From Gemmatimonadaceae bacterium (lineage in GTDB: Bacteria > Gemmatimonadota > Gemmatimonadetes > Gemmatimonadales > Gemmatimonadaceae): a stretch of 56,500 nt of DNA. Position numbers and translations under genes: made by a program. Numbering within the stretch: position 1 is the first letter of the stretch; every line of letters starts with the position of its first letter. Shown here one piece after another: positions 39,753 to 54,801 of the stretch. The notes beneath the pieces are model-generated. The model saw nothing but the letters and a program-made list of their open reading frames with translations. It had not been told where the DNA came from and did no database searches. The stretch lies in NCBI GenBank assembly GCA_020853635.1, contig JADYYN010000239.1, positions 1 to 56,500 on the forward strand, given 5' to 3'.

Positions 39753-41039
39753 ATGCCCATCTCCTACGATCGCGCCCGCGAGCTCGCCCTGCGTTTGAGC
39801 CGCGGGCTCTCGCTCGACGTCCTCAAGGATCGCCTCGCGCCGCGTGACCCGGAGCAGCACCCGGCGCCGCCGCGCGTACCCGGCGCCTCGCAGTGGAGCG
39901 CCGAGGCACGCGCGAGCCGGATCGAGTTCCTCGAGGCACGCGCCGGTGAGCTTCCCGCCCTCGATGCACGCGCGGCGGCCGTCGATCCGGCCACGCTTAA
40001 GGGCAACATCGAGAACTACATCGGGATGACGCAGATCCCGACCGGCGTGATCGGACCGCTGCGCATCAACGGATTGCACGCGTCGGGCGACTACTACGTG
40101 CCGCTCGCGACCTCCGAGGGTGCACTCGTCGCGAGCTTCGACCGAGGAGCGCGACTGATCACCGAGTCGGGTGGTGTGGCGACGCTCGTCACGACGGAGC
40201 AGGTGCAGCGCGCGCCGGGCTTCGTGTTCGCGTCGATCGCCGAGGCCGCACTGTTCGCGGCGTGGTGCGTGGAACAGTTCGAGCGCTTCCGCGAGGTGGC
40301 AGCGACTGCGACCAAACATGGCCAGTTGGTGGATATGCAGGCGCACATCGAAGCCAATCACGTCTACCTGATCTTCGCGTTCTACACCGGTGATGCCGCC
40401 GGGCAGAACATGGTCACGTTCTGCACGGCTGCCGTTTGCGCCGATCTGCTCGAACGCACGCCGGTCACCCCGGTCACGTGGTTCCTCGAAGCGAACATGT
40501 CGGGCGACAAGAAGGCGACGGCGCTGAGCTTCATCTCCACCCGCGGTCGCAATGCCACCGCCGAAGTACGGCTACCCGCCGCACTCGTCGAGAAACGACT
40601 GCACACTACGCCGGCGCGCATGGCGCAGTACTGGCGGATGAGCTTCATCGGCGGCGTGCAGAGCGGATCGATCGGCGTGAGCGGGCACATCTCCAACGGT
40701 ATCGCCGCGCTCTTCCTTGCCACGGGACAGGACGTCGCCTGCGTGAGCGAGGCGAGCGTTGGCATCACGCGCATGGAGGTCGAGGACGACGGTTCGCTCT
40801 ACGCCGCGGTGAGTCTGCCCAACCTCATCGTCGGCACGGTGGGTGGCGGCACGCGCCTCCCCACCGCGGCGGAGTGCCTGCGCATCCTCGACTGCATCGG
40901 CGCGGACCGGGCGTCGCGCTTGGCGGAGAGCTGCGCGGCGGTGGCGCTGGCGGGCGAACTCTCCATCGTCGGTGCACTCTGCGCTGGCGACTTCGCGCGG
41001 GCCCACGCGGTGTACGGACGCAGCAAGTCCGGCAAATGA
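39753..41039 (+). CDS. Class I-like hydroxymethylglutaryl-CoA reductase
   Basis: 428 residues. Motifs run in order: ENYIGMTQIPTGVIGPL (87-103), ATSEGALVASFDRG (119-132, catalytic Glu122), TGDAAGQNMVTFCT (212-225), MSGDKKATALSF (catalytic Lys at 253 or 254), ATGQD (Asp327) and a final ARAHAVYGR (His418). All four catalytic positions are present. VGTVGGGTRLPT resembles class I enzymes, while several insertions are unlike eukaryotic or archaeal types. It converts HMG-CoA to mevalonate with NAD(P)H. No other mevalonate-pathway gene is in the window. The stop overlaps the UbiA start (ATGA), tying it to the prenyltransferase. Confidence 0.9.
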   Translation: MPISYDRARELALRLSRGLSLDVLKDRLAPRDPEQHPAPPRVPGASQWSAEARASRIEFLEARAGELPALDARAAAVDPATLKGNIENYIGMTQIPTGVIGPLRINGLHASGDYYVPLATSEGALVASFDRGARLITESGGVATLVTTEQVQRAPGFVFASIAEAALFAAWCVEQFERFREVAATATKHGQLVDMQAHIEANHVYLIFAFYTGDAAGQNMVTFCTAAVCADLLERTPVTPVTWFLEANMSGDKKATALSFISTRGRNATAEVRLPAALVEKRLHTTPARMAQYWRMSFIGGVQSGSIGVSGHISNGIAALFLATGQDVACVSEASVGITRMEVEDDGSLYAAVSLPNLIVGTVGGGTRLPTAAECLRILDCIGADRASRLAESCAAVALAGELSIVGALCAGDFARAHAVYGRSKSGK

Positions 41040-41983
41040 CCACCAAGGCCGATGCGCGTCCTCGCGCGTCGCTGTTGCATCGGCTCGCGGTATATCAGCG
41101 CGAGCGCTTTCCGCTCGCTGCGTATATCCCTCTCATCGCGATCGCGGCCACCGCTGGGATGGCCTGGTCACGCGCCGCTCGCGGTGCGGAAGGGTTTGTA
41201 ACGGGCGCGCACTGGGGCACCGGTGCGCTGACGATGCTGGTGATGTTCTTTCTCCTGCGCGTCGCGGATGAACACAAGGACGCCGCACTCGATCGGGTCG
41301 CGCGTCCTGAGCTCCCGGTGCCGCGTGGTCTCGTCTCGCTCGCCGAGCTGCGGGTGGTCGGCGGGGTGCTCGCGCTCGTCGTCGTCGCATTGAATGCGTG
41401 GGTCGCACCTGCACTGCTGCTTCCGCTGCTCGTCGTCGCGACGTGGGCCGCGCTGATGACCAAGGAGTTCTTCGTCGCCGAGTGGCTGCGGGCGCGGCAC
41501 GGACTGTATCTGCTCAGCCATATGGTGGTGATGCCGCTCATTCTTGGGTACGCGTCCGCAGTGGATTGGCTCGTCGAGAGCGGCGCAGCGCCACGGATGC
41601 TCGCCGTCTTCCTCGCAGCCACGTACGCGAACGGGCTCGTGCTCGAGATCGGCCGGAAGCTGCGTGATCCCGCGGCGGAACGGCCCGGCGTGGAGACCTA
41701 CTCCGCCGTGTGGGGGCGCGGGAACGCCACGGCGCTATGGACGCTCGCCTTGTTCGCAGCGGCGATGCTGACCGCGTGGGCGATGACGGTCGCGGGGCTC
41801 TCAGCCGTGACGAGTTTCGCGGTCGGCATGCTGGCGGCACTACTGCTCGCACTGCCGGCTCGCGCGCTGCTCGCGGGGCGTCCGGGCAGTGGGAAACGGA
41901 TCGAGCGGGTGAGCGGTGTCTGGAACCTGTTCGCATACGTGTTGCTGGCGCTGCCGTGGGCAATGCGCGAGGCCGGGCGATGA
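41036..41983 (+). CDS. UbiA-type membrane prenyltransferase
   Basis: 315 residues with about nine membrane helices. The first aspartate-rich site reads RVADEHKDAALDRVARPELP with the following VPRGLVSLAEL, and the second EIGRKLRDPAAERPGVETYS. These are the two Mg/diphosphate-binding motifs of the UbiA superfamily, in a variant wording (DExxDxxxD; EIGRKxR) shared with little-studied members. It would transfer a prenyl group to an aromatic or polar acceptor at the membrane. It begins four bases inside the HMG-CoA reductase gene and ends four bases inside the dikinase gene. Acceptor unknown. Confidence 0.85.
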   Translation: MTTKADARPRASLLHRLAVYQRERFPLAAYIPLIAIAATAGMAWSRAARGAEGFVTGAHWGTGALTMLVMFFLLRVADEHKDAALDRVARPELPVPRGLVSLAELRVVGGVLALVVVALNAWVAPALLLPLLVVATWAALMTKEFFVAEWLRARHGLYLLSHMVVMPLILGYASAVDWLVESGAAPRMLAVFLAATYANGLVLEIGRKLRDPAAERPGVETYSAVWGRGNATALWTLALFAAAMLTAWAMTVAGLSAVTSFAVGMLAALLLALPARALLAGRPGSGKRIERVSGVWNLFAYVLLALPWAMREAGR

Positions 41984-44655
41984 GTGCTGTCCACCGCGAC
42001 ACGCCGCGCGCTCGCGCACTCGACGGCACCACGCTCGGCGGCAAAGCATCGAACCTGCTTCGCGTGCAGGCGGCTGGGCTCCCTCATCAGGTACCGCGGT
42101 GGTTCGCGATTCCCGCCGAGGTGCATCAGCGGCTGGTCCTGCATGGCCCGCTGCCCGCCCATGCCGACGCCACCGAGCGACGGCGGCAGCAGGTGCTCGC
42201 GATGGACGTGCCGCGCGAACTGCGCGAGGCGGTGCAGAAGGAACTCGCGCGTGTCCGTCTGCACGGCATCGCGCTCGCCGTGCGGTCGTCAGCCACCATC
42301 GAAGACGGAGCTGCCGCATCGTTCGCCGGCCAGTTCGAGACGGTGTTGGGTGTGGTGGCCACCGCCGACGATGACGCCGCGCTGTGGGATGCGGTGCGTC
42401 GTGTGTGGGCCTCGGCGTTCGGACGACATGCGCTCGCGTATGCAGGCGGTTCCGCACTCGGTGCTCCTCAGCCGATGGCGGTGGTGATCCAGGAGCTCGT
42501 CGATGCACGCGCTGCCGGGGTCGCGTTCTCCATCGACCCGATGAGCGGCGATGCAGAGATCGCGGTAGTGAGCGCCGTCATCGGTTTGGGCGAGTCGCTG
42601 GTCTCCGGCGCACAGGACGCCGACACCTGGCGTGTGGAGGGGCGCGGTGCTCAGACGCGCCTCACCGCGACGATCGCCGAGAAGACGCACGCGCTCGTGC
42701 GCAGCGCAGATGGCAACACCGTGACGGTCGAGATCGCGCCGGCCGAGCGCATGCGCCCTGCGCTCAGCGACGCCGAGGTGCGCGCCGTCGCCGACGCCGC
42801 GCGCGAGTTGGCCTATGCGCTCGGCGGCCCACAGGACATGGAGTGGGCGTTCTCTCGTGGCGATGGTCGCTTGTTGATCCTGCAGACTCGCCCGGTGACG
42901 GCCACGGGCACCAAGCTGCCGACCGGCGAGATCCGCGTCTGGGACAACAGCAACATCATCGAGAGTTACGGCGGTCTCACCTCACCGCTCACGTTCAGCT
43001 TCGCGCGGAGCGTGTACGAGGACGTGTACATCCAGTTCTGCCGACTGGTCGGCGTGAGCGAGTCGCTGATCGGTGACTACCGCCATGTGTTCGCGCACAT
43101 GCTCGGGCTCATCCGCGGCCGCGTGTACTACAACCTGCTCAACTGGTATCGCGTGCTCGCGATGCTGCCGGGCTACGCCTTCAACCGCGAGTTCATGGAG
43201 CGGATGATGGGCGTGCGCGAGAAGCTCGCTGAACCACCTGACCCGCCGCCCGCGGCCAACCGTTGGGTGGATCTCTCGCGCTTGGTGCGCACCGTCGTGC
43301 GGCTCGTGCTGGCCAATCGCGCGCTCGCGACCGAAGTGCCAGCGTTCCATGCGCGCGTGTCGGCGGCACTCGATCCGCTCGCCGGAGAGGACCTCTCGGC
43401 CCGGTCGCCGGAAGAGCTGCTGCGACTGTACCGGCGGCTCGAGGACTCGTTGCTGCGGCACTGGCAGCCGCCGCTGGTGAACGACTTCTTCGCCATGATC
43501 TGGTTCGGTGTGCTCGGCCGACTGGTCGAGCGCTGGTTGCCGACCGAGCCACCGACGCTCGTGAACGACCTGCTCTGTGGGGAAGGTGGCATCGTCTCCA
43601 CCGAGCCCGCTCGTCGTGTGATGGCGCTCGCGCGCATCGTGCACGACGATCCCGCGCTCACGGCGATGTTCGCCGCCGAGCCCGATGACGCGGGACTCGC
43701 CAAGCGCATCGCGTCCGACGAGGCGGCGCGCGCACTGCGCCAGGCACTCGACGAGTATCTGCGTCGCTTCGGCGATCGCTGCATGAGTGAACTCAAGCTC
43801 GAGACCGTGACACCGTCCGAGGACCCCGCGTGGGTGGTGATGATGATCCGCGCGTACGTCATCGGTGGCGCGACGGCACCCGAGGCCGGGCAGGAGCGCG
43901 AACGCGCCATCCGAGCGGCGGCAGAACGGCGCGTAGAGGCGGGTCTGGGTGGATTCCGAGAGTGGGTGTTCCACCGAGTCCTCGCGAGCGCTCGTGTGCG
44001 TATCCGCGACCGCGAGAATCTGCGATTCGAACGCACGCGTGTGTTCGGGGTGGTGCGCCGGATCTTCGTCGCGTTCGGGAAACATCTCGCAACTGCTCGA
44101 CGCATCGACGACGCGCGCGACATCTTCTGGCTCACTCGCGACGAAGTGTTCAGCGAGGTCGAGGGCACCTCGACGACGCGTGACCTGCGCGCGCTCGTCG
44201 AAGTGCGGCGCACGGAGTACGCACGCTACGCGTCGGAAGCCGCGCCGCCCGACCGATTCACCACACGCGGCATGCCGGGCGACGCCATTCCCACGGCGAC
44301 CAATGCGGCCGTCGCATCTGGCGCGGACCTCAAGGGGATCGGATGCTGCCCCGGTGTCGTTCGCGCTCCCGTGCGCGTCGTGCTCGATCCATCGCATGCC
44401 GGCGACCTGCGCGGGCGCATCCTCGTGGCGGAACGGACCGATCCAGGCTGGACGCTCCTGTTCCCCACGTCGTCGGGCCTGCTCGTGCAGCGCGGGAGTC
44501 TGCTCAGCCACTCGGCGATCGTGGCGCGGGAGATGGGCATCCCGTGTGTCGTCGCGATCCCAGGTCTGCTTGATACCTTGGTCGATGGTGAGATCGTCGA
44601 GATGGACGGCACGACCGGTGTGGTGCGCCGCCTGAACACCGCGGCCACGGCATGA
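41980..44655 (+). CDS. PEP-synthase-like dikinase with rifampicin-phosphotransferase layout
   Basis: 891 residues. The N-terminal ATP-grasp domain has LGGKASNL, VRSSATIEDGAAASFAGQFE (101-120) and DMEWAF...LQTRPV. A long helical middle (about 320-770) has no PEP-synthase counterpart. The C-terminal swivelling domain contains GSLLSHSAIVAREMG with the phosphorylated His at about 844. The C-terminal PEP/pyruvate TIM barrel is missing. This ATP-domain/substrate-domain/His-domain order is that of rifampicin phosphotransferase: ATP gives AMP, phosphate and a phosphorylated alcohol. The middle domain should choose the substrate. The prenyltransferase and CTP-kinase-like neighbours make a prenol or lipid alcohol conceivable; antibiotic phosphorylation is the alternative. 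Confidence 0.85.
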   Translation: MSAVHRDTPRARALDGTTLGGKASNLLRVQAAGLPHQVPRWFAIPAEVHQRLVLHGPLPAHADATERRRQQVLAMDVPRELREAVQKELARVRLHGIALAVRSSATIEDGAAASFAGQFETVLGVVATADDDAALWDAVRRVWASAFGRHALAYAGGSALGAPQPMAVVIQELVDARAAGVAFSIDPMSGDAEIAVVSAVIGLGESLVSGAQDADTWRVEGRGAQTRLTATIAEKTHALVRSADGNTVTVEIAPAERMRPALSDAEVRAVADAARELAYALGGPQDMEWAFSRGDGRLLILQTRPVTATGTKLPTGEIRVWDNSNIIESYGGLTSPLTFSFARSVYEDVYIQFCRLVGVSESLIGDYRHVFAHMLGLIRGRVYYNLLNWYRVLAMLPGYAFNREFMERMMGVREKLAEPPDPPPAANRWVDLSRLVRTVVRLVLANRALATEVPAFHARVSAALDPLAGEDLSARSPEELLRLYRRLEDSLLRHWQPPLVNDFFAMIWFGVLGRLVERWLPTEPPTLVNDLLCGEGGIVSTEPARRVMALARIVHDDPALTAMFAAEPDDAGLAKRIASDEAARALRQALDEYLRRFGDRCMSELKLETVTPSEDPAWVVMMIRAYVIGGATAPEAGQERERAIRAAAERRVEAGLGGFREWVFHRVLASARVRIRDRENLRFERTRVFGVVRRIFVAFGKHLATARRIDDARDIFWLTRDEVFSEVEGTSTTRDLRALVEVRRTEYARYASEAAPPDRFTTRGMPGDAIPTATNAAVASGADLKGIGCCPGVVRAPVRVVLDPSHAGDLRGRILVAERTDPGWTLLFPTSSGLLVQRGSLLSHSAIVAREMGIPCVVAIPGLLDTLVDGEIVEMDGTTGVVRRLNTAATA

Positions 44656-45749
44656 GCCAGACGGAGATCGGCGCGCGGGCCAAGTTCGACTTCATCCGCT
44701 ACGCGAGTGTGTGGGAGGATGCCGATATCCTCTGTGAGGCGCTCCGTCCGAGTGTCGCTGGCGGGCGCATCCTCTCCATCGCGTCGGCCGGCGACAATGT
44801 GCTGGCGATGCTCACGCTCGATCCGGCGGAGATTGTCGCGGTCGACCTCAGTGCGCCGCAACTCGCTGCTGTCGAGCTGCGCATGGTCGCGTTCGGCGAG
44901 CTCGATCGCGATGCGTTGCTGGCGTTCTTGGGCGTCACTCCCGCAGCGGACCGCGCACGCACCTACGCGGCGTTGCGAGGCGCACTCAGCGAGCGTGCCC
45001 GGGAGTTCTGGGACCGCCACCCCGAGGCGATTGCACTCGGCGCGGCGCATGCGGGGAAGTTCGAACGCTTCTTCGGCATCTTCCGGCGCCTTGTGCTCCC
45101 GCTCGTGCACGGTCGGCGCACCGTCGAGTCGCTGCTCGTGCCTCGCGACGCGTCCGGGCGCGAGCGCTTCTATGTGGAGCGGTGGGACTCGCTGCGCTGG
45201 CGTCTCATCTTCCGCTTGTTCTTCAGTCGATTCGTGATGGGCCGCCTCGGACGCGATCCCGAGTTCTTCGCGCACGTGGAGGGCAGTGTGGGCGAGCGCA
45301 TCCTCGCGCGCACGCGCCACGCGCTCACGGCACTCGAGACGCACAGCAACCCGTATCTCACGTACATCCTCACCGGCAACTTCGCGGCCGATGCGCTGCC
45401 GATGTACCTGCGGCCCGAGCACTACGCGACCATCCGCGACCGGCTGAGCCGCGTCACGTTGCTGCAGTCCGCGGCCGAGCAGGCACCGGGCCGGTTCGAC
45501 GGGTTCAATCTGTCGGACATCTTCGAGTACATGAGTCCGTCGGGTCACGTCGAGTCGTACCGGGCGTTCGCCGCGCTCGCACAACCCGGGGCGCGCTTCG
45601 CGTACTGGAATCTGCTCGCGCCGCGAGGCGTCCCTGATGCGCTGCGCCCGGGGATCATGCCGCTGCGCGACGTCGCTGAGCGGCTGCACCAGCGCGATCG
45701 GGCGTGGTTCTACGGCGCATTCCATGTGGATGAGGTCGCCCGCACGTGA
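44652..45749 (+). CDS. BtaA-like DUF3419 protein
   Basis: 365 residues. The S-adenosylmethionine site is ILSIASAGDNVLAML (40-54) followed by AVDLSAPQLAAVELR. NLSDIFEYMS and FAYWNLLAPR follow in the order of DUF3419. Characterised members (BtaA) transfer the 3-amino-3-carboxypropyl group of S-adenosylmethionine to diacylglycerol, the first step to betaine lipids. No BtaB-type N-methyltransferase is nearby, so the product may stay unmethylated or be modified by another enzyme. Start and stop overlap neighbours by four bases (ATGA, GTGA). Confidence 0.83.
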   Translation: MSQTEIGARAKFDFIRYASVWEDADILCEALRPSVAGGRILSIASAGDNVLAMLTLDPAEIVAVDLSAPQLAAVELRMVAFGELDRDALLAFLGVTPAADRARTYAALRGALSERAREFWDRHPEAIALGAAHAGKFERFFGIFRRLVLPLVHGRRTVESLLVPRDASGRERFYVERWDSLRWRLIFRLFFSRFVMGRLGRDPEFFAHVEGSVGERILARTRHALTALETHSNPYLTYILTGNFAADALPMYLRPEHYATIRDRLSRVTLLQSAAEQAPGRFDGFNLSDIFEYMSPSGHVESYRAFAALAQPGARFAYWNLLAPRGVPDALRPGIMPLRDVAERLHQRDRAWFYGAFHVDEVART

Positions 45750-47191
45750 CGCAGGTACTCCGAACCGAGTTGGTCAATGCGGCGTTCATCGGCGCGGCGT
45801 TCCTGGCGATCTTCGTCGCCGCTGAATTGTGGCGGAAGACGAGCGCACCGCCGGTGGAGTGGACGCGGAAGCTGGTGCACTTCGGTGGTGGCGTGGTCGC
45901 GGCCTTCTTCCCGTGGTTGGTCCGCAGTCACTGGACGGTACTGGCGCTCGGCGCGGCGTTCCTCGCCATCCTGTGGGGATCACGCCGCACGGGGTTGCTG
46001 CAGAGTGTGCATGGCGTTGCGAGGTCTTCCGAAGGTGGCATCTATTTCCCGATAGCGATCTACCTTGTCTATTTGATCGGGTCCGGCCATCCGGTGTCGT
46101 ACTTCGTCTCCGTGCTCGTGCTCGTCGTTTCGGATGCGGCCGCTGCCGTGCTCGGGTCCGCGTATGGGCGGCTGCACTTCGACGTCGAACGTGACAAGCG
46201 GAGCCTCGAAGGGTCGACGGTGTTCTTCGTGTCGACGTTCCTCATCGTTCACCTTTCACTGCTGCTGCTCACCGACACGGACCGCCTGCTCAGCGTACTG
46301 GTGGCCGCGCAGATCGCCCTTGTGGTCACGCTGGTCGAGGCGATCAGCATCGAAGGCAACGACAACATCCTCGTCCCGCTCGCGACCTACTTCCTGCTCT
46401 ACAAGCTCACCCAGCAGACGACGGAGATGCTGCAGGTCCAGCTGCTCGCGCAGCTGGCGATCATTGCGATCGTCGGGCTGGCCGCGTGGCGCATCCCGTT
46501 CGTGAGTGGCAGTGGTGCCGCCGCGCTCACGCTGTTCGTGTACGGCGCCTACGCACTCGGCGGCCCGGAATGGACCGTGGGTCCGGTGGTCGGCATCGCG
46601 GCGTTCGGATTGTTGTTCGCGCGACGCACGACGGAGTCCGGCGCGCGCAGTCCGCGCTATCAGGTGATCGCGGCCTTCTATATCTGTGTCGTGCCCACAC
46701 TGCTGTATTTCGCGAACAACCTGTTCGAGTCCATCCTCCGGCGACCGCTCTGGCTGGCCGAGGGCGATCCGTTCTACCCGGTGTTCCTCGGTGCGTGTGC
46801 GGCGCAGGTGGCGATCGTCGCATGGAATCTGGAGCCGAGCACGGGAGGCAGCGCGCTCGGCATGCCGGGATGGACACCGGATGAGACCACGCCAAAGTCG
46901 ATGAGCAGCCTGACGTCAGCACCACACGAGTGGTCGCTCGCGATCGGCTTTGCGGTCGCCGCCGCGCTGGTCATCATCGGGCCGGGTTTGTACGCGCATG
47001 TGATGACGCTCCGCGCGGTCGAGGTGGCGACAGCAGTTGCGCTCCTCGGTCCGGCGATCTACCACGCGATGCGGCATCTGCCGCAGTGGCCCAAACACCC
47101 GCCGTGGAACGCACGGCTCGCGACGGCGAGCGTCGCCGTCGCGAGTATCATCGTGATCGCGGTCTGGCTGAACGTGTTGCCGGCCCGCTAG
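45746..47191 (+). CDS. Phytol/dolichol kinase-like membrane protein with extra C-terminal membrane domain
   Basis: 481 residues, about 13-14 membrane helices. The N-terminal half has WTRKLVHFGGGV (40-50), VSDAAAAVLGSAYGR (128-142), RDKRSLEGSTVFF (149-161) and VEAISIEGNDNILVP (197-211): the motifs of CTP-dependent phytol kinase, dolichol kinase and related cytidylyltransferases. Phytol kinase of about 200-230 residues would end here. The rest (about 225-481) is a second membrane domain, with no matching family recognised. It starts from a GTG that overlaps the BtaA-like stop (GTGA). It may phosphorylate or activate a polyprenol in the same pathway as the upstream dikinase. Converges with the acyl-CoA ligase one base away. 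Confidence 0.78.
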   Translation: MTQVLRTELVNAAFIGAAFLAIFVAAELWRKTSAPPVEWTRKLVHFGGGVVAAFFPWLVRSHWTVLALGAAFLAILWGSRRTGLLQSVHGVARSSEGGIYFPIAIYLVYLIGSGHPVSYFVSVLVLVVSDAAAAVLGSAYGRLHFDVERDKRSLEGSTVFFVSTFLIVHLSLLLLTDTDRLLSVLVAAQIALVVTLVEAISIEGNDNILVPLATYFLLYKLTQQTTEMLQVQLLAQLAIIAIVGLAAWRIPFVSGSGAAALTLFVYGAYALGGPEWTVGPVVGIAAFGLLFARRTTESGARSPRYQVIAAFYICVVPTLLYFANNLFESILRRPLWLAEGDPFYPVFLGACAAQVAIVAWNLEPSTGGSALGMPGWTPDETTPKSMSSLTSAPHEWSLAIGFAVAAALVIIGPGLYAHVMTLRAVEVATAVALLGPAIYHAMRHLPQWPKHPPWNARLATASVAVASIIVIAVWLNVLPAR

Positions 47192-47192
47192 T

Positions 47193-48821
47193 CTATCCGC
47201 GCAGCAGGGCCCGCAGCGCTTCGGTGTCGGTCTTTGAAGCGTGGCGAGGATCGCGCGGGATCGTCGACACTGCGCGCAGTTCATCCACCGGATGCGGCGC
47301 GACCATCGCGATGAGCTCTGCGCGGAACGCGGCGTCGAGTGGGCGGTCCGTCTCCACGACGAGCACGGCGCGCTGTTGGCCCGGTTCACCCGTGCCGAGG
47401 TACGCGGCATGACGCACCGATTCGTGCGCGAGTGCCCGCGTCTCCGCCGGCAGCCCCCACCACACGGCGTCCGCACGGCGCACGCGCTCACGCACGCGTC
47501 CCATCAGCCAGAGTCGTCCTTCGGCGTCGATGCGACCGCCATCACCCGTGCGATGCCACACGCGATCTCCCTCGCGCAGTTTCGCGGCCCGCTCTGCCGC
47601 CGGGTCGTTGAGATAGCCGCGCAGCACATGCGCTCCGGACACGACGATCTCACCGGTCCGCCCGCGCGGCAGCTCAAGCGCACTGATCCCTCCCGCGCGG
47701 AGATCGATCACACCGTCCGCGACCTGAAGGATGCGGACATCGACCTGAGGCACCGGCGCTCCGACGCAGATGCCACCGCGTTCGCCCGCGCTCGCAGGCA
47801 GGTCGTCGACGCGCGATGTGTCACGTGCGTCGAGCAGTGCACGCATCTCGATCCCGCTGATCGGTTCAGCTTCCGTACTGCCATAGACCACGTGCGCCTC
47901 ACCGGCGACCTGCGCGGCGAGACGCCGTGCGAGCGGCGGAAGTACCGGCGCGCCGCCGGTGAACAGCGCACGCACCGGGATCTTCTCGCCGCGGCGTTCC
48001 GCGTAGCCGACCAGTCGCTCGTAGAACGCCGGCGATCCCGACGTCGTCGTCACCCGCTCAGCGACCATCTGCGTCCAGACGCGTGCGGGGTCGATCTCCG
48101 CCGGTCGACGCGGATCGAAATCCGGGATCACACTCGGCACACCGAGCGCGAGGTTGTTGAGCACGAAGATCGGCAACGTGGGCATGTCGATGTCATCGTC
48201 GCGGAGGCCGAGGTGCGCGGCGAGTGCCTCGTGCTGCGCCCATAGGAACGCGTGTGTGCGCACGGCGGCCTTGGGTGCGCCGGTGCTGCCGGTGGTGAAC
48301 GTGATGAGTGCGGGATCGTCGGGCTCGGCGCGGGTCGGGGCGCAGGGTGACGCCGAGCGCAGCCCGCCGGCACCGGCCACGAAGTGATGTGCGACGCCGC
48401 GCAGCGCCGGGGAGACGATGCGGAGCAACTGCGCCTTCCACGACCCCACGAAGGCCTTGGGCGCTGCGGCACGCACGGCGTTGTCGAGTCGCTTGCGGTC
48501 GGCCCATGCATCCACGAACACGGCAGTTGCTCCCGCGTGCAGCACCCCGAGCAGAACCGCGTACAGTTCTGCGGACATCGGGACCAGGATGAGCACGCGG
48601 TCACCGTGTCCGACACCGTAGCCGCGGAGCGACGCACCGACCGTGGCGACGCGTTCCGCGAGCTGCGCGAACGTGACGCGCGTCGCACGGCCTCGGTGGT
48701 ACTCGATGATCGCCGCACGCTCCGGATGCATCGCCGCACGCGCGATGAGTCGCGCGGCGATGTTCGCGTCAGTGGGAGTTGTGTGACGCGTGTCGTCTGC
48801 TGCGCTCAACGCGTCGCCCAT
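47193..48821 (-). CDS. AMP-dependent acyl-CoA ligase, OleC-like
   Basis: 542 residues of the ANL superfamily: ATP loop TFTTGSTGAPKAAVRTH, VYGSTEAEP, HRTGDGGRIDAEG and the C-terminal catalytic Lys in DPRHASKTD. The wording (FTTGSTGAPKAAVRTH, and PRHxSKxD) is that of OleC/beta-lactone-synthetase and related long-chain acyl ligases rather than acetyl-CoA synthetase. It activates a carboxylate as adenylate and thioester, or closes a beta-hydroxy acid to a beta-lactone. No OleA, OleB or OleD gene is in the window. Starts 16 bases inside the end of the GNAT gene, so the two are coupled. Confidence 0.86.
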   Translation of the reverse strand: MGDALSAADDTRHTTPTDANIAARLIARAAMHPERAAIIEYHRGRATRVTFAQLAERVATVGASLRGYGVGHGDRVLILVPMSAELYAVLLGVLHAGATAVFVDAWADRKRLDNAVRAAAPKAFVGSWKAQLLRIVSPALRGVAHHFVAGAGGLRSASPCAPTRAEPDDPALITFTTGSTGAPKAAVRTHAFLWAQHEALAAHLGLRDDDIDMPTLPIFVLNNLALGVPSVIPDFDPRRPAEIDPARVWTQMVAERVTTTSGSPAFYERLVGYAERRGEKIPVRALFTGGAPVLPPLARRLAAQVAGEAHVVYGSTEAEPISGIEMRALLDARDTSRVDDLPASAGERGGICVGAPVPQVDVRILQVADGVIDLRAGGISALELPRGRTGEIVVSGAHVLRGYLNDPAAERAAKLREGDRVWHRTGDGGRIDAEGRLWLMGRVRERVRRADAVWWGLPAETRALAHESVRHAAYLGTGEPGQQRAVLVVETDRPLDAAFRAELIAMVAPHPVDELRAVSTIPRDPRHASKTDTEALRALLRG

Positions 48822-49804
48822 TCGTAGAGCACGTAGCGCCGGAACCGGCTCGCCGTGCGCTCGCTCATGCGTTTGGACACGTTGCTGACGTGCATCAGCG
48901 CGTGGATCACGGCGCGATGTCCCTTCGCGACCGCGAGGCTGCGAGTGCGGTCCACCAAGAGTGCGCCGAGCCCGAGCCCGCGGAGCGCAGGGGCGGTCAC
49001 GAGCGTCTTGAGGACCACACGGCCCGGTGCACCGTGAGCTGCGCCGAGCGGATCGACGAATGCGAACACGAACCCCACGAGCGCACCGGACGCGTCACGC
49101 GCGAGCTGGACGAAGTCGGGGTCGAGGATCGGTCGCATGGGCGTGTACATCGCGAGGAACTCCTCGCGGTCGATCGGGCGGTAGTACGGATTGTCGACGA
49201 AGGACTCGAGGCTGAGCGCATGGATCTCGCCCAGGACCTCGACGAACCGATCGATCGCGAGCGGCTCGATGCGGATGCCTGCATCGGCGACCTTCGCCAC
49301 CGCCGGGGCGGCCTTGGGGTCGACGATCGTCAAGTCTCGCTGGATGCGGCTCTCGTATTCGACGATCGGCACGAAGCCCGCGGCCTCGAAGTACTCGGGA
49401 TACTTCAGTGAGTTGGTCGGCTCGCTCAGATACGGCGGCTCCGACGCCTCGGCCGGTGAAGAAGCCGCCGAGACGAAGCGGTACCGCGCCCACGTGCTGC
49501 CGTTCATAGGCCCGATGACACGCGTGGCGCCTTCGCGCACGAGCGTCGCCGCTGCTTCGCGCAACAACGCGACCGCCGCGTCCGCATCGCACGCCCCGAA
49601 GTGCCCGATCAGACCACACTCACCTGCCACACCACGGAAGTCGTCACGCCGATACGTCGCCAGCCCGGCGACGACCGCCGCACCGCGTCGAGCGAGCCAG
49701 CACTCCGCGCTCGGCTCGACCGGCTCAAGCTGGCCCTGCGCGAGCAGGAACTCGTCCAGTTCCGCAGGGCTCGCGTGACGGACGATCTGCAACGCGTTCG
49801 TCAC
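48806..49804 (-). CDS. GNAT-like acyltransferase, paired with the acyl-CoA ligase
   Basis: 332 residues from a GTG. The fold shows an N-terminal half with GLIGHFGACDADAAVALLRE and IGPMNGSTWARYRFV, and a C-terminal GNAT core with VLKTLVTAPALRGLGLGALL (acyl-CoA pyrophosphate loop). This doubled layout is seen in GNAT proteins near lipid genes. The last 16 bases overlap the ligase gene. Together they could move an activated acyl group onto an amine; the acceptor might be the aminocarboxypropyl group made by the BtaA-like protein on the other strand, but this is inference only. The start is not certain. Confidence 0.72.
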   Translation of the reverse strand: MTNALQIVRHASPAELDEFLLAQGQLEPVEPSAECWLARRGAAVVAGLATYRRDDFRGVAGECGLIGHFGACDADAAVALLREAAATLVREGATRVIGPMNGSTWARYRFVSAASSPAEASEPPYLSEPTNSLKYPEYFEAAGFVPIVEYESRIQRDLTIVDPKAAPAVAKVADAGIRIEPLAIDRFVEVLGEIHALSLESFVDNPYYRPIDREEFLAMYTPMRPILDPDFVQLARDASGALVGFVFAFVDPLGAAHGAPGRVVLKTLVTAPALRGLGLGALLVDRTRSLAVAKGHRAVIHALMHVSNVSKRMSERTASRFRRYVLYEWATR

Positions 49805-49832: not shown

Positions 49833-50486
49833 TCACCGCGCGAAGCAATAGAACAACCCGTTCCCACCCGTCGCCACCAGATTCGCCTGACTGCACCCGC
49901 GCGACCCGTGCGCCGAGTTCCACGAGGTCGGCCGCACGCCGCCGCCCTGCTTGTCGTGGTGCCCCACCATCGCCGAACCGCTCCCGGCGGTGCTGCTCGT
50001 CCAGTTGCCGCAGGTGGTGTCGAGCGTATCAGTCGCCACGCGCCCGTCGGGCAGCGACCCGGTGAGGATGTCATGCTGGTTCGGTGTGTCGCCGCGGCCG
50101 TTCACCGGCTCGCCTTTCTCATTGAGGCTGTTCGCCTTGCCGAGTAGGTTGGCATCGCTGTGCAACACGTCGACGTCCTGCGCGACGAGCACCCCCTTCG
50201 CGTTGTACCACGGACCCTTGCCGATGCGATCCCGGGCGTGGACAACCGCCTGTCCGTCCTTCGCCACGGCGCTGAGGTACGCCCGCCACTCCTTCCCGGT
50301 CACCCCGGCAGCCTCGGCCAGGGTATGACAGTGGCGGTCGGCCCCGGCCAACCCACCCAGGTCCGCGCCGTTCCCCGTGCCGATACTGGTGATGAAGAAG
50401 CTCATGGTCGCCCGCCCCTGCGGCGCCGAGGGGGCACCGACCACGAGCACCGCGCCGGTGAGGGCCAACATCTTCATCGCGCGCAT
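49833..50486 (-). CDS. Secreted protein with endostatin/lectin-like (DUF1554-type) fold
   Basis: 217 residues. Signal-like start (about 1-27), then SFFITSIGTGNGADLGGLAG, CHTLAEAAGVTGKEWRAYLS, DRIGKGPWYNAKG and a final GSRGCSQANL with GLFYCFAR. Several Cys at the expected disulfide positions and WRAYLS match bacterial lectin-like or endostatin-like domains common in Gram-negative secreted proteins. It probably binds carbohydrate or a cell surface. GGAG six bases before the ATG supports the start. Confidence 0.78.
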   Translation of the reverse strand: MRAMKMLALTGAVLVVGAPSAPQGRATMSFFITSIGTGNGADLGGLAGADRHCHTLAEAAGVTGKEWRAYLSAVAKDGQAVVHARDRIGKGPWYNAKGVLVAQDVDVLHSDANLLGKANSLNEKGEPVNGRGDTPNQHDILTGSLPDGRVATDTLDTTCGNWTSSTAGSGSAMVGHHDKQGGGVRPTSWNSAHGSRGCSQANLVATGGNGLFYCFAR

Positions 50487-51314: not shown

Positions 51315-51347
51315 TTAACCTGTCACCTGCTTTGGAGTGAGATAGTC

Positions 51348-51917
51348 ATGAACAAGTGGATCACCGCGTTCGTCGCGGCGCCGGTACTGGCTGCGGCGTC
51401 CGCCGCCATCGCCCCGAAGGCCTTCGGGCGCGACGTCGCGCACTCGCAGATCAACTTCGTCGCCGAGTCGCAGCTCGTGGATGCGCACGGCACGTTCGAT
51501 AGCTGGGACGCGACGATCATGTTCGACGCCGAGAAGGTCGAGGCGTCGTCGGTGGTCATCACCATCGATGCGAAGAGCATCAACACCCGCATCGCGCAGC
51601 GTGACAATCACCTCAAGAGCAACGACTTCTTCGCGACGGACTCGTTCCCGCAGATCACGTTCAAGTCGACGATCATCAACAAGCTCGCCGACGACCGGGT
51701 GAACATCACCGGCGATCTCACCATGCGCGGCCGGACCAAGACCATCACGATCCCCACCCGCCTCACCCAGGTGAACGCCGAGCGCAACGTCTGGCGCGTG
51801 AAGGGCACCACGGTGATCAACCGTGAGGACTTCGGCGTGTCGTACCAGTCGGCGATGAACAAGATCAGTTCCGAGGTGCAACTGCAGTTCGACATCGCGT
51901 TCGGGGAGAAGAAGTAG
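51348..51917 (+). CDS. YceI family periplasmic lipid-binding protein
   Basis: 189 residues. Signal peptide (about 1-27), then the lipocalin-like barrel with S-Q-I-N-F-V-A, F-D-S-W-D-A-T and the core DNHLKSNDFFATDSFPQITF, followed by GDLTMRGRTKTITIPTRL and FGVSYQSA. YceI proteins bind polyprenyl-type lipids in the periplasm. The isoprenoid theme of the upstream cluster makes a common ligand conceivable. Ends at a strong hairpin. Confidence 0.92.
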   Translation: MNKWITAFVAAPVLAAASAAIAPKAFGRDVAHSQINFVAESQLVDAHGTFDSWDATIMFDAEKVEASSVVITIDAKSINTRIAQRDNHLKSNDFFATDSFPQITFKSTIINKLADDRVNITGDLTMRGRTKTITIPTRLTQVNAERNVWRVKGTTVINREDFGVSYQSAMNKISSEVQLQFDIAFGEKK

Positions 51918-51934
51918 CTCCGACACGCAAGGCT

Positions 51935-51967
51935 CGCGGGGCGTGCCCGGAACGGGGACGCCCCGCG
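51935..51967 (+). terminator. Terminator after the YceI gene
   Basis: A 10-base perfect inverted repeat (51935-51944 and 51958-51967) with an inner CCCG/CGGG stem, followed by TGTAGTTTGTAG. It separates the YceI gene from the ABC operon. Confidence 0.7.
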
Positions 51968-51983
51968 TGTAGTTTGTAGGGAC

Positions 51984-52850
51984 GTGTTCCCCCTCCCGCT
52001 TCTTCGGGTCCTCGCGCTCGCCGCGGCCCTCCAGCAATCGACGCCGTCGGCCACCTCGCCGATCGCGCCGCCGCGGGACTCCGGTGCGGCCATCCGCAGC
52101 ATCACCATCGACGAACGCCTCGCCGCCGCGGCCGGACTTTCGGTCGGCGATCGCGTGCTGCTCGCCCCCGCCGCCGGCGCCGTCGGAGACTCGGTGGTCA
52201 TCGCCGCCATCACGCGTCGCGGGGCGGACCCGTCGGAAGTCGCGCGCAGCGAGTACCGCGTGCGATTGCATCTCGACCATCTGGAGACGCTCACCCGGTC
52301 CGGTGATCGCGTGGGCCGCTTCGCGGTGCAGTCGCGCGAGGAAGCGGATCCCTCCGCGGTGTCCGCCGCGATCAACGAAGCGGCCTTCGGATTCCGCGCG
52401 TATCCCGCCGCAGAAGTGGCAGTGGAGACCAGCGCGACGTTCCGCGTGGTGAATCGCTTCCATCGTGCGATCGGCGTCATCACCATCGTCGCCAGCGCGA
52501 TTTTCCTGCTCTGCATCACGCTGCTCAAGGTCGACGAACGCCGACGCGACGTGGGCGCGCTGCGCCTCATCGGCATGAGCCGCAGCTCGGTCGTGCGCGC
52601 GGTGGTGCTCGAAGCCTCGCTCGTGTCGCTCATCGGCAGCATCATGGGCGCCGGGCTGGGCTGGTTCGCGTCGTGGGTGGTGAACTGGTACTACCAGGGC
52701 GTGTACGCCACACCGCTGCGCTTCGCGATCGTCACACCGAGTATCGTCGTGTTTGCGGTGACGCTCTCGCTCGGGCTTGGAGTCATTGCGGGGCTGCTCG
52801 CGGCGCAGCGCCTGGTGCGCCGCGCGCCGCTGGAGTTGATCGGCCGATGA
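51984..52850 (+). CDS. FtsX-type ABC permease (short form)
   Basis: 288 residues from a GTG directly after the terminator. An N-terminal hydrophobic segment (about 5-17) is followed by a periplasmic domain (about 25-150) and a C-terminal membrane domain with three helices containing ALRLIGMSRSSVVRAVVLEA, the FtsX hallmark. The protein is about 100 residues shorter than usual. It is the first of four genes that overlap by four bases each. The system resembles LolCDE/MacB/AttEFGH, which extract lipids or export peptides without a substrate channel. A weak start is possible. Confidence 0.78.
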   Translation: MFPLPLLRVLALAAALQQSTPSATSPIAPPRDSGAAIRSITIDERLAAAAGLSVGDRVLLAPAAGAVGDSVVIAAITRRGADPSEVARSEYRVRLHLDHLETLTRSGDRVGRFAVQSREEADPSAVSAAINEAAFGFRAYPAAEVAVETSATFRVVNRFHRAIGVITIVASAIFLLCITLLKVDERRRDVGALRLIGMSRSSVVRAVVLEASLVSLIGSIMGAGLGWFASWVVNWYYQGVYATPLRFAIVTPSIVVFAVTLSLGLGVIAGLLAAQRLVRRAPLELIGR

Positions 52851-54073
52851 TGCTGCGCCTCGCACTCGCCACGTTGTCACGGCGTCGTGCACGCACGGCG
52901 CTCACCACCGCAGGTGTCGCGGTCGCCGCGGCGATGTTGCTCGACATGGTCATGCTGGGCTCAGGTATGCGCGAGAGCTTCCGCGGGTTCATCGAGCAAC
53001 AAGGGTTCCAGATCCGCCTCACACCGCGCGGCACCATGCCGTTCGACTCTGAAGCGACGGTCGGCGGCGGCGCGGCGTTGGTGCAGGCGGTCTCGGCGGA
53101 CCCGGACGTGGTGAAGGTCGCGCCGCTCATCGGGTCGAAGATCTTCTCGCGCGTCACGGCAGCCTCTACGTCCGCGAACACTCCGCCTTCAGGTGCCGAC
53201 TCTGTCGTCGCCGCCTTCGTACTCGGTGTCGTCCCCGCCGTGCAGGGTGACTACCTCATCGTCGAAGGTCGCGAGCTTGCGGCGCCCGACGAGATGGTTG
53301 TGAACGCAAGTTATCTCGCCGCCACCGGATTCGCCGTCGGCGACACGGTGCAGATCGCCGCCGGGTACGACGCGCAGATGCGGCGGTTCGCCGGCACCCG
53401 CACGGTACGCATCGTCGCGCGCGCCCGGTTCGTGATGCTCGGAGGTACGGAGCGCGCGGCAGCGCTGCCGCTCGAGACGGTACAGGCGATGGGTGGGCCC
53501 GAGCGCGCGGACCGCGTGTCGGTGGTGATGGTCGCCACTCGCCCCGGTGCGGACATCGAGACCGTGCGCCTCCGCCTCGAGGCCGCCGATGCGCGCGTCA
53601 GCGCACTCTCCACCGCCGCCGCACTCAAGTTCGTCGATGAACGACTCGGCTACTTCCGTCAGCTGGCGTTCATTCTCGCCACGGTGTCGCTCGCCGTGGG
53701 ATTCCTGCTCGTGACCACACTGGTGACCGTCTCGGTGAACGAACGCATCGGCGAGATCGCGGTGATGCGAGCGATCGGCGTGGCGCGCTGGCGTATCGTG
53801 GCACAGGTGATGGCCGAGGGCGTCGCGCTCTCGTTGGTGGGTGCGACGATCGGACTCGGCTTAGGGCTCATCACCGCGAAGTGGCTCAATGGCATCTTGG
53901 CGGCGTTCCCGGGACTGCCGGCCGCATTCGACTTCTTCTATTTCGAACCGGCGGCGGCATTCCGCTCGCTGGGACTCTTGGTGCTCTGCGGGATCGCGGC
54001 GGGGGTCTGGCCGGCGTGGCGTGCCGCCACGTTGCCCATCGCGAAGACCCTGCGTGAGGAGGCAGTGGCATGA
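52847..54073 (+). CDS. FtsX-type ABC permease (full length)
   Basis: 408 residues with the four-helix MacB/LolC plan: first helix at about 15-38, periplasmic domain (about 45-270), and three C-terminal helices with VMRAIGVARWRIVAQVMAEG. It overlaps the previous stop (ATGA) and the ATPase start. Together with the short permease it probably forms a heterodimeric membrane complex. Confidence 0.88.
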   Translation: MMLRLALATLSRRRARTALTTAGVAVAAAMLLDMVMLGSGMRESFRGFIEQQGFQIRLTPRGTMPFDSEATVGGGAALVQAVSADPDVVKVAPLIGSKIFSRVTAASTSANTPPSGADSVVAAFVLGVVPAVQGDYLIVEGRELAAPDEMVVNASYLAATGFAVGDTVQIAAGYDAQMRRFAGTRTVRIVARARFVMLGGTERAAALPLETVQAMGGPERADRVSVVMVATRPGADIETVRLRLEAADARVSALSTAAALKFVDERLGYFRQLAFILATVSLAVGFLLVTTLVTVSVNERIGEIAVMRAIGVARWRIVAQVMAEGVALSLVGATIGLGLGLITAKWLNGILAAFPGLPAAFDFFYFEPAAAFRSLGLLVLCGIAAGVWPAWRAATLPIAKTLREEAVA

Positions 54074-54801
54074 GGGAGATCGTGCTCGCGGCGCGCGATG
54101 TGCGGCGCGACTATCCGGTGGTGGGTGAACCCGTGCACGCGGTGCGCGGTATCTCGCTCGATGTCGCGGCCGGTGACTGGGTCGCCGTCGTCGGTCCCTC
54201 GGGCTGTGGCAAGTCCACGTTGCTCAACCTGCTCGGCGCGATCGATCGGCCGACCGCGGGCTCCATCTCGATCCGCGGCAAGGACGTCGCGCGCATGAAC
54301 GACGCCGAGGCGACCAGGTTCCGGCTCACCGGCATCGGCTTCGTGTTCCAGCGATTCTATCTCATGCCCACACTCACCGCGTCCGAGAACGTCGAGCTGC
54401 CGATGAGCGAGGCGAAGGTGCCGCGTGCGCAGCGTGTGGCACGCGCGCGTGAGTTGCTCACCTACGTGGGACTCGGCGCGCGCGCGGATCACCGACCGTA
54501 TCAACTCTCCGGTGGTGAACAGCAGCGCGTGGCGATCGCGCGTGCACTGGCGAACCAACCGGCGCTGCTGCTCGCCGACGAACCCACCGGTGAACTCGAC
54601 GCGCGCACCGGCACCGAGATGATCGCATTGTTCGACCGACTCAATCGCGACGGCACCACCATCGTCACGGTCACCCACGACGAGGAGCTCGCGCAGGCCG
54701 CGCGTCGGGTGGTGCACATGAAGGACGGCGCGATCGTCGATCAGGTCGTGCGGCGTCCGCTCGGCGACGACGCTCCTGCGGCGCGTGGGGCCACGGCGTG
54801 A
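54070..54801 (+). CDS. LolD/MacB-type ABC ATPase
   Basis: 243 residues: Walker A GPSGCGKSTLLNLLG, signature LSGGEQQRVAIARALANQP, Walker B LLLADEPTGELD and switch His in VTVTHDEELA. The GEQQR and ADEPTGELD wording is that of the LolD/MacB/FtsE group that works with FtsX-type permeases. Both ends overlap neighbours by four bases (ATGA, GTGA). Confidence 0.95.
   Translation: MREIVLAARDVRRDYPVVGEPVHAVRGISLDVAAGDWVAVVGPSGCGKSTLLNLLGAIDRPTAGSISIRGKDVARMNDAEATRFRLTGIGFVFQRFYLMPTLTASENVELPMSEAKVPRAQRVARARELLTYVGLGARADHRPYQLSGGEQQRVAIARALANQPALLLADEPTGELDARTGTEMIALFDRLNRDGTTIVTVTHDEELAQAARRVVHMKDGAIVDQVVRRPLGDDAPAARGATA

Follow-up and report, generated by a model that had tools for sequence, protein, structure and literature searches.

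We analysed a 56,500-nucleotide stretch of DNA from a Gemmatimonadaceae bacterium (contig JADYYN010000239.1, positions 1 to 56,500; hereafter the window), which carries a set of seven genes encoding a homologue of 3-hydroxy-3-methylglutaryl coenzyme A (HMG-CoA) reductase (HMGR), a UbiA-like transferase, a dikinase-like protein, a DUF3419 protein of the BtaA family, a kinase-like membrane protein, an AMP-forming ligase and a tandem GNAT acyltransferase (Table 1). An initial annotation of this DNA had described the first five genes as an overlapping operon, and both the open reading frames (ORFs) and the four 4-base stop-to-start overlaps were confirmed from the window sequence (ATGA at 41036, 41980 and 44652; GTGA at 45746). 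The unit itself proved larger, however, with the ligase and GNAT genes lying on the opposite strand, convergent with the operon. Because all four junctions overlap by four bases and the same order recurs in other genomes, the five overlapping genes very likely form a single transcription unit, although such overlaps do not prove the fixed stoichiometry that had been read into them.

The family names given in that annotation held for the most part: the HMGR, DUF3419 and PPDK_N/PEP-utilizers assignments had strong Pfam support, the UbiA match fell below the cut-off and the kinase, which had no Pfam match, is named after its conserved motifs. The start of the GNAT gene is uncertain, as its ORF is open to 50074 and conservation in tblastn begins near 49804.

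Table 1. The seven genes of the window locus and the evidence for their families.
Gene product	Coordinates	Strand	Evidence
HMGR-fold reductase without Lys735	39753..41039	+	PF00368, 367 bits; residue comparison
UbiA-like membrane transferase	41036..41983	+	Pfam 26.7 bits, cut-off 34.2; motifs; DGGGP synthase nearest solved relative
Dikinase-like protein	41980..44655	+	Pfam PPDK_N and C-terminal PEP-utilizers
DUF3419 protein, BtaA family	44652..45749	+	PF11899, 192 bits; alignment
Membrane protein, dolichol/phytol-kinase-type motifs	45746..47191, GTG start	+	44-row alignment; model pLDDT 91
OleC-like AMP-forming ligase, DxRHxxK end	47193..48821	-	PF00501, 178 bits
Tandem GNAT acyltransferase	48806..~49804	-	PF00583, 28 bits; tblastn extent; model pLDDT 89.6; Foldseek

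Conservation and inheritance of the seven genes

Scanning 84,980 species genomes yielded at least 542 confirmed DUF3419 relatives; the loci of the best 80 were retrieved, a sample that leans to cluster-type proteins. Genes crossing contig ends were excluded from ORF clustering and from counts of well-flanked loci, those with at least 9 kb on each side. Of the 32 well-flanked loci, 21 had all seven genes. The commonest arrangement, HMGR-UbiA-dikinase-DUF3419-kinase-GNAT-ligase on one strand, occurred in 22 of the 80 loci; compared with it, the GNAT and ligase genes are inverted in the window, as they are in its nearest relatives. Conservation of gene order in other genomes had been proposed as a test of the pathway idea, and the order is indeed kept both within the genus and in other phyla. 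No further core family emerged from ORF clustering over 83 loci; judged from their coordinates, the other large components arise from antisense or out-of-frame reading of the seven genes.

Within the order, DUF3419 relatives were present in 10 of 99 genomes, including the genome analysed here, and in 3 of 17 genomes of the genus. Among the nine other genomes of the order, the seven genes were complete in three (L012, L013 and L016), a fourth (L015) had six genes and no HMGR, and a 3.3 kb contig (L014) held three. Beyond the order, the DUF3419 clade spans 20 phyla (77 rows with a phylum name), and its tree has 31 phylum changes against a minimum of 19; complete sets occurred in at least 11 named phyla. 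In the isolate Roseinatronobacter sp. S2 such a set lies on a 137 kb plasmid, with the HMGR gene spanning the record start. Distances in the protein trees of 39 complete loci were correlated across all seven proteins (pairwise rho 0.68-0.92, the highest between GNAT and ligase), and for each of the 21 protein pairs none of 300 permutations reached as high a value. The co-occurrence of the genes, the correlation of their trees, the excess of phylum changes and the plasmid-borne set therefore indicate that the seven genes constitute, almost certainly, one co-inherited pathway, and that this pathway has been passed between phyla.

A minority of loci departs from this pattern, which counts against the pathway proposed below. 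In the four remaining genomes of the order the loci (L017-L020) hold more distant DUF3419 relatives and none of the other six genes, and the remaining 11 well-flanked loci hold six genes (five loci), five (four loci), four (one locus) or DUF3419 alone (one locus). HMGR is among the absent genes in well-flanked loci L026, L030, L043, L070, L071, L078 and L082.

The initial annotation knew of no described pathway with this gene combination, in agreement with the literature searched, where most subscription journals were missing and the seven-gene combination was not described. To judge from their titles, the DUF3419-related papers found there concern algae, plant betaine lipids, anther smut and a picoalga. 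Each enzyme belongs to a known family or resembles one, so that any novelty would lie in the pathway that combines them.

The cluster HMGR homologue and the isoprenoid route of its hosts

Residue conservation was compared in 51 of the 55 loci with an HMGR ORF (at least 380 aa), using PDB 6hr7 and 8ecg as references. Glu559, Arg590, Asp690, Lys691, Lys692, His752, Asn755, Asp767 and His866 are kept in 51/51 cluster HMGRs, so that the catalytic residues Glu559, Lys691, Asp767 and His866 are intact throughout. Lys735, which we take to be a contact to the HMG carboxylate, is missing from all 51, replaced by Met, Val, Ile, Phe, Leu or Thr, and Met657 is changed to Gln in every one; the window protein has Met at 735 and Gln at 657. 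In 8ecg Lys735 aligned one column off, and the cluster rows lack Lys in both columns. By comparison, Lys735 is present in 7/7 reference or mevalonate HMGR rows; it is kept in the HMGRs of two Streptomyces mevalonate operons. The seven Lys735 rows were split from the 27 others in the HMGR tree with support of 100/99, in a tree that has long branches for L122, L125 and 8ecg. No statement on the role of Lys735 was found in the literature searched.

The genomes that carry the cluster mostly encode DXR, of the methylerythritol phosphate (MEP) route. HMG-CoA synthase was found in 0/10 of the own and nearby genomes (the own genome being 84% complete), and DXR in 9/10, including the own genome; the one miss, G026, is 78% complete. 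GHMP kinases numbered two in the own genome, two in each of four cluster-less relatives searched, and, in the other cluster-bearing genomes, two (G003, G008 and G034), one (G026) or four (G032). The other loci led to 30 further cluster-bearing genomes, four of which were represented by a fetched locus without HMGR (L030, L070, L071 and L082); of the 30, DXR was detected in 26, HMG-CoA synthase in three and neither in one. The three genomes with HMG-CoA synthase lack DXR and have two HMGRs each: the cluster protein, in which Lys735 is missing, and a second that retains it. Thus, in cells with both, the cluster HMGR is distinct from the mevalonate-pathway HMGR. No mevalonate-using enzyme was found among the conserved cluster neighbours. 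Taken from its residues and these genomic surroundings, the cluster HMGR homologue very probably does not act on HMG-CoA.

Related proteins outside the cluster suggest a candidate substrate. Four relatives carry HMGR-like proteins outside the cluster (L116, L117, L118 and L119), all without Lys735 and all encoded close to an ABC1 kinase gene, identified by Pfam in three cases and by similarity in the remaining one; a wax ester synthase/diacylglycerol acyltransferase (WS/DGAT) gene lies near those of L116 and L118. G032, one of these four genomes, has a cluster without HMGR. At loci L039 and L079, the HMGR start lies within ~5 bases of the end of an ORF for an acyl-CoA ligase. Long-chain fatty acid ligases are the closest matches of the L039 protein (338 bits, against a cut-off of 476), to which the ligase of L079 is 43% identical. 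An Alteromonas HMGR-like protein without Lys735 is encoded some kilobases from genes for an AMP-binding protein and a short-chain dehydrogenase/reductase. Among the HMGR-like genes of Photobacterium and Vibrio (L120, L124 and L127), those of L120 and L124 also lack Lys735 and are nested inside the cluster-type clade; the surrounding 13-15 kb contained none of the other six genes, and the annotated neighbours in L127 are unrelated. Reduction of a fatty or isoprenoid acyl-CoA by the cluster HMGR appears slightly more probable than not, and conversion of a long-chain acyl-CoA to the alcohol is the simplest candidate reading. As further features of the relatives outside the cluster, the L116-L119 proteins carry an additional domain at the N-terminus (matching PF25653 in L116 and L118), and patatin genes lie near those of L116 and L119.

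Chain and head-group enzymes

The UbiA-like protein has the motifs DExKDxxxD and ExxRKxRxPxxE, the first Asp-rich motif (D78, D82 and D86) being invariant in 28 rows, and its family profile finds digeranylgeranylglyceryl phosphate (DGGGP) synthase 6m31 at E 4.6e-5. To judge from its sequence, the protein fits a prenyl- or alkyl-diphosphate transferase. The dikinase consists of an ATP-binding domain, a middle part with no family assignment and a C-terminal phospho-His domain whose His844 is present in 59 of 60 aligned rows, the last row having a gap; no Pfam match to a phosphoenolpyruvate (PEP)/pyruvate barrel was obtained. The kinase-like protein, for which the predicted structure is confident and helical, carries the motifs RKxxH, DAxAAxxG, EGS and GxDNxxxP, presumably of dolichol/phytol kinase type, with E38, R41, K42, H45, D130, G137, E155, G156, D206, N207 and P211 invariant in the 44 aligned rows. 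A VTE6-like second domain, suspected by eye in its C-terminal half, was discarded, having no Pfam support up to E 10.

By family, the DUF3419 protein is predicted to transfer the 3-amino-3-carboxypropyl (acp) group of S-adenosylmethionine (SAM); BtaA is listed as an aminocarboxypropyl transferase in PMC10491745. Its conserved residues were compared with those of a BtaA-family protein adjoining a methyltransferase, and identity to a Rhizobium leguminosarum DUF3419 protein encoded beside a methyltransferase gene was 27%. No solved relatives were found by sequence. The search for BtaB proposed in the initial annotation, made in 10 genomes with the Rhizobium methyltransferase taken as BtaB, gave generic methyltransferase-like matches in nine of them, none above 36.6 bits, and no methyltransferase family was prominent among the conserved neighbours. 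DUF3419 genes were also seen in other company: on a Rhizobium plasmid (L103) beside genes for a ketoacyl-acyl carrier protein synthase III, an MBL-fold protein and a 'CoF synthetase', and on a Mycobacterium riyadhense plasmid (L104) with an iron-containing redox enzyme and a GNAT.

The GNAT model is a tandem GNAT fold whose best Foldseek matches include mycothiol synthase and glucosamine N-acetyltransferase. A match to YghO, presumably a relative of bCerS, was weak (35 bits, 21%) and the others were to GNATs in general, and identity as a ceramide synthase was not adopted. A GNAT profile had a match at 57 of the 83 loci. Of the 26 loci without one, five (L027, L032, L033 partially, L035 and L073) have a formyltransferase relative, which none of the 57 has, and these five occupy two distinct regions of the DUF3419 tree. 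Replacement of an N-acyltransferase by a formyltransferase fits a free amino group, such as acp transfer would create, and acp transfer followed by N-acylation has, in our estimate, slightly better than even odds. The ligase scored 410 bits against NCBIfam PRK09274, below the cut-off of 478, and its Lys530 is present in 58 of 59 rows.

Accessory genes vary among loci. ORF clustering around the clusters found cytochrome P450 genes at eight loci, sulfotransferase genes at six, and MFS and MMPL transporter genes at four each; Pfam checks covered examples only (P450 3/8, sulfotransferase 1/6, MFS 1/4, MMPL 2/4, formyltransferase 1/5). These genes fit a lipid that is modified and exported. At an Omnitrophota locus (L079, 12459-16784), a 1441-aa protein of the CoA-dehydratase/benzoyl-CoA-reductase activase type is encoded between the kinase and ligase genes. 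In the window, an Endostatin-like protein (49833-50486; 27.6 bits, Pfam cut-off 29.4) lies directly upstream of GNAT and overlaps the over-long N-terminus of its ORF. Farther along are tandem MacB/FtsX-type permease and ABC ATPase genes (52673-54801) and, on the strand opposite to that pair, a 525-aa ORF with no Pfam match (51315-52892).

A proposed lipid pathway and its alternatives

Overall, the best explanation of the set is a lipid-biosynthesis unit that would make an N-acyl or N-formyl homoserine-ether lipid, to which we assign a probability of about 0.5. The AMP-forming ligase would generate an acyl-CoA, which the HMGR-fold enzyme would take through a four-electron reduction to the alcohol. 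Activation of an alcohol, perhaps to the diphosphate, would fall to the kinase-like membrane protein together with the phospho-His dikinase, and UbiA would transfer the activated chain as an alkyl or prenyl group. DUF3419 would then move the acp group of SAM to a lipid hydroxyl, giving a homoserine ether as in diacylglyceryl-trimethylhomoserine (DGTS) lipids, and GNAT would acylate the new amine, with the formyltransferase possibly taking its place in some lineages. In some hosts the product might be modified by the P450 and sulfotransferase and exported by MMPL or MFS proteins. The lipid is probably amino-acid-headed; that the whole scheme holds in this order is doubtful. It is a tentative possibility, slightly less remote than that, that the product represents an undescribed major class of bacterial lipids across many phyla, with a tail alcohol supplied by an HMGR branch turned alcohol-forming acyl-CoA reductase.

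Several observations count against this proposal. The kinase has neither a Pfam nor a PDB sequence match, and Foldseek found nothing for it at E <=0.001, CdsA (4q2e) ranking 23rd with a probability of 0.66. Loss of Lys735 is by itself no proof of a new substrate. WS/DGAT genes lie near just two of the four sister HMGRs, the Vibrio HMGR-like protein without Lys735 stands alone with no acyl-CoA-type neighbours, and in a Sinorhizobium plasmid operon (L122, 1031-10727) the gene for such a protein is flanked by those for acyl-CoA carboxylase subunits. Four relatives have DUF3419 by itself, and it is also found in other neighbourhoods, which makes its acceptor here a guess. Many of the 26 GNAT-less loci are short contigs, where absence of GNAT says little, and L079 has neither GNAT nor formyltransferase. 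As a separate observation, an indolepyruvate ferredoxin oxidoreductase gene lies beside the HMGR-like gene of L122.

Three other explanations were considered. The mevalonate-making reductase of the initial annotation implies that HMGR supplies mevalonate for a dedicated isoprenoid chain, joined to the head group by UbiA, with HMG-CoA derived from leucine breakdown. The intact catalytic residues of the cluster HMGRs and the membership of UbiA in a prenyltransferase family agree with this, but the own genome has no detectable HMG-CoA synthase and no extra GHMP kinase, DXR is nearly universal in the own and nearby genomes, Lys735 is lost, the conserved neighbours include no mevalonate-using enzyme and the three mevalonate-route hosts retain a separate canonical HMGR. 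Mevalonate supply for a dedicated prenyl chain was thus rejected and is very improbable. What endures of the earlier lipid-pathway idea is the single pathway and, still as the best guess, an aminocarboxypropyl lipid; the mevalonate-derived prenyl chain does not.

Reduction might instead take place on the head group: after N-acylation, which would come first as protection, the ligase would activate the carboxylate of the N-acylated homoserine ether, the HMGR-fold enzyme would convert it to a ceramide-like amino alcohol, and the kinase would phosphorylate the latter. Such a scheme would place ligase, reductase, GNAT or formyltransferase and kinase in one chemical line, draws on the four-electron thioester reductions that HMGR performs, and suits the adjacency of GNAT and ligase in common gene orders as well as their top tree correlation. 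It is nevertheless unlikely: the additional fatty-acid-type ligase next to HMGR in L039 and L079 and the WS/DGAT genes near sister HMGRs point to reduction of the chain, and the scheme assigns no role to UbiA and the dikinase. Slightly less probable is salvage of a prenol as in the plant VTE5/VTE6/VTE2 series, in which kinase and dikinase would produce a prenyl diphosphate for transfer by UbiA, and DUF3419 and GNAT would do no more than decorate the acceptor. The phytol/dolichol-kinase-type motifs, the proximity of UbiA to DGGGP and chlorophyll synthases and the adjoining UbiA and dikinase genes in common orders speak for it; against it, the dikinase belongs to another family than VTE6, and the core contains no isoprenoid-specific gene.

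The homoserine-ether proposal and the residue data have consequences for annotation. Many MEP-route bacteria are annotated with an HMG-CoA reductase; the Lys735-less branch is predicted to carry out different chemistry, and the state of Lys735 provides a simple residue test for predicting HMGR function. If the prediction is true, this branch would take in proteins that now carry the name HMG-CoA reductase, some of them encoded near wax-ester-synthase genes and others in different surroundings. The presence of complete sets in many phyla, yet patchily within the genus by DUF3419, suggests a transferable lipid. Isolates with the set, for example Natronospirillum operosum and Methylomonas sp. SURF-1, could bring the structure of the lipid within reach of ordinary lipidomics.

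The seven-gene set is placed under no known system, because the mevalonate route and a true HMGR each fail a defining test and the betaine-lipid route has no clear BtaB. Synthesis of DGTS by BtaA-BtaB resembles it in using a DUF3419 protein, whose family transfers acp to a lipid, but the set adds six other conserved genes and DGTS synthesis was not adopted, no clear BtaB partner being found in 10 genomes. The cluster HMGR shares the fold family and catalytic residues of class I HMG-CoA reductase and differs from it at Lys735 and Met657, on a separate branch. Rifampin phosphotransferase and PigC-RedH share the ATP-binding and C-terminal phospho-His domains and have no Pfam pyruvate barrel; the cluster dikinase nevertheless scores far below the NCBIfam cut-offs for RedH (342 against 1350 bits) and Rph (279 against 999 bits). 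The olefin beta-lactone synthetase OleC belongs to the same group as the ligase, which matched OlefBLtnSynXan at 259 bits, below the family cut-off of 900, and no other Ole gene is labelled in the core. Plant prenol salvage by phytol kinase and VTE2 has prenol-kinase-type motifs and a UbiA transferase in common with the cluster, which differs in having acp-transfer, GNAT, ligase and HMGR genes as well.

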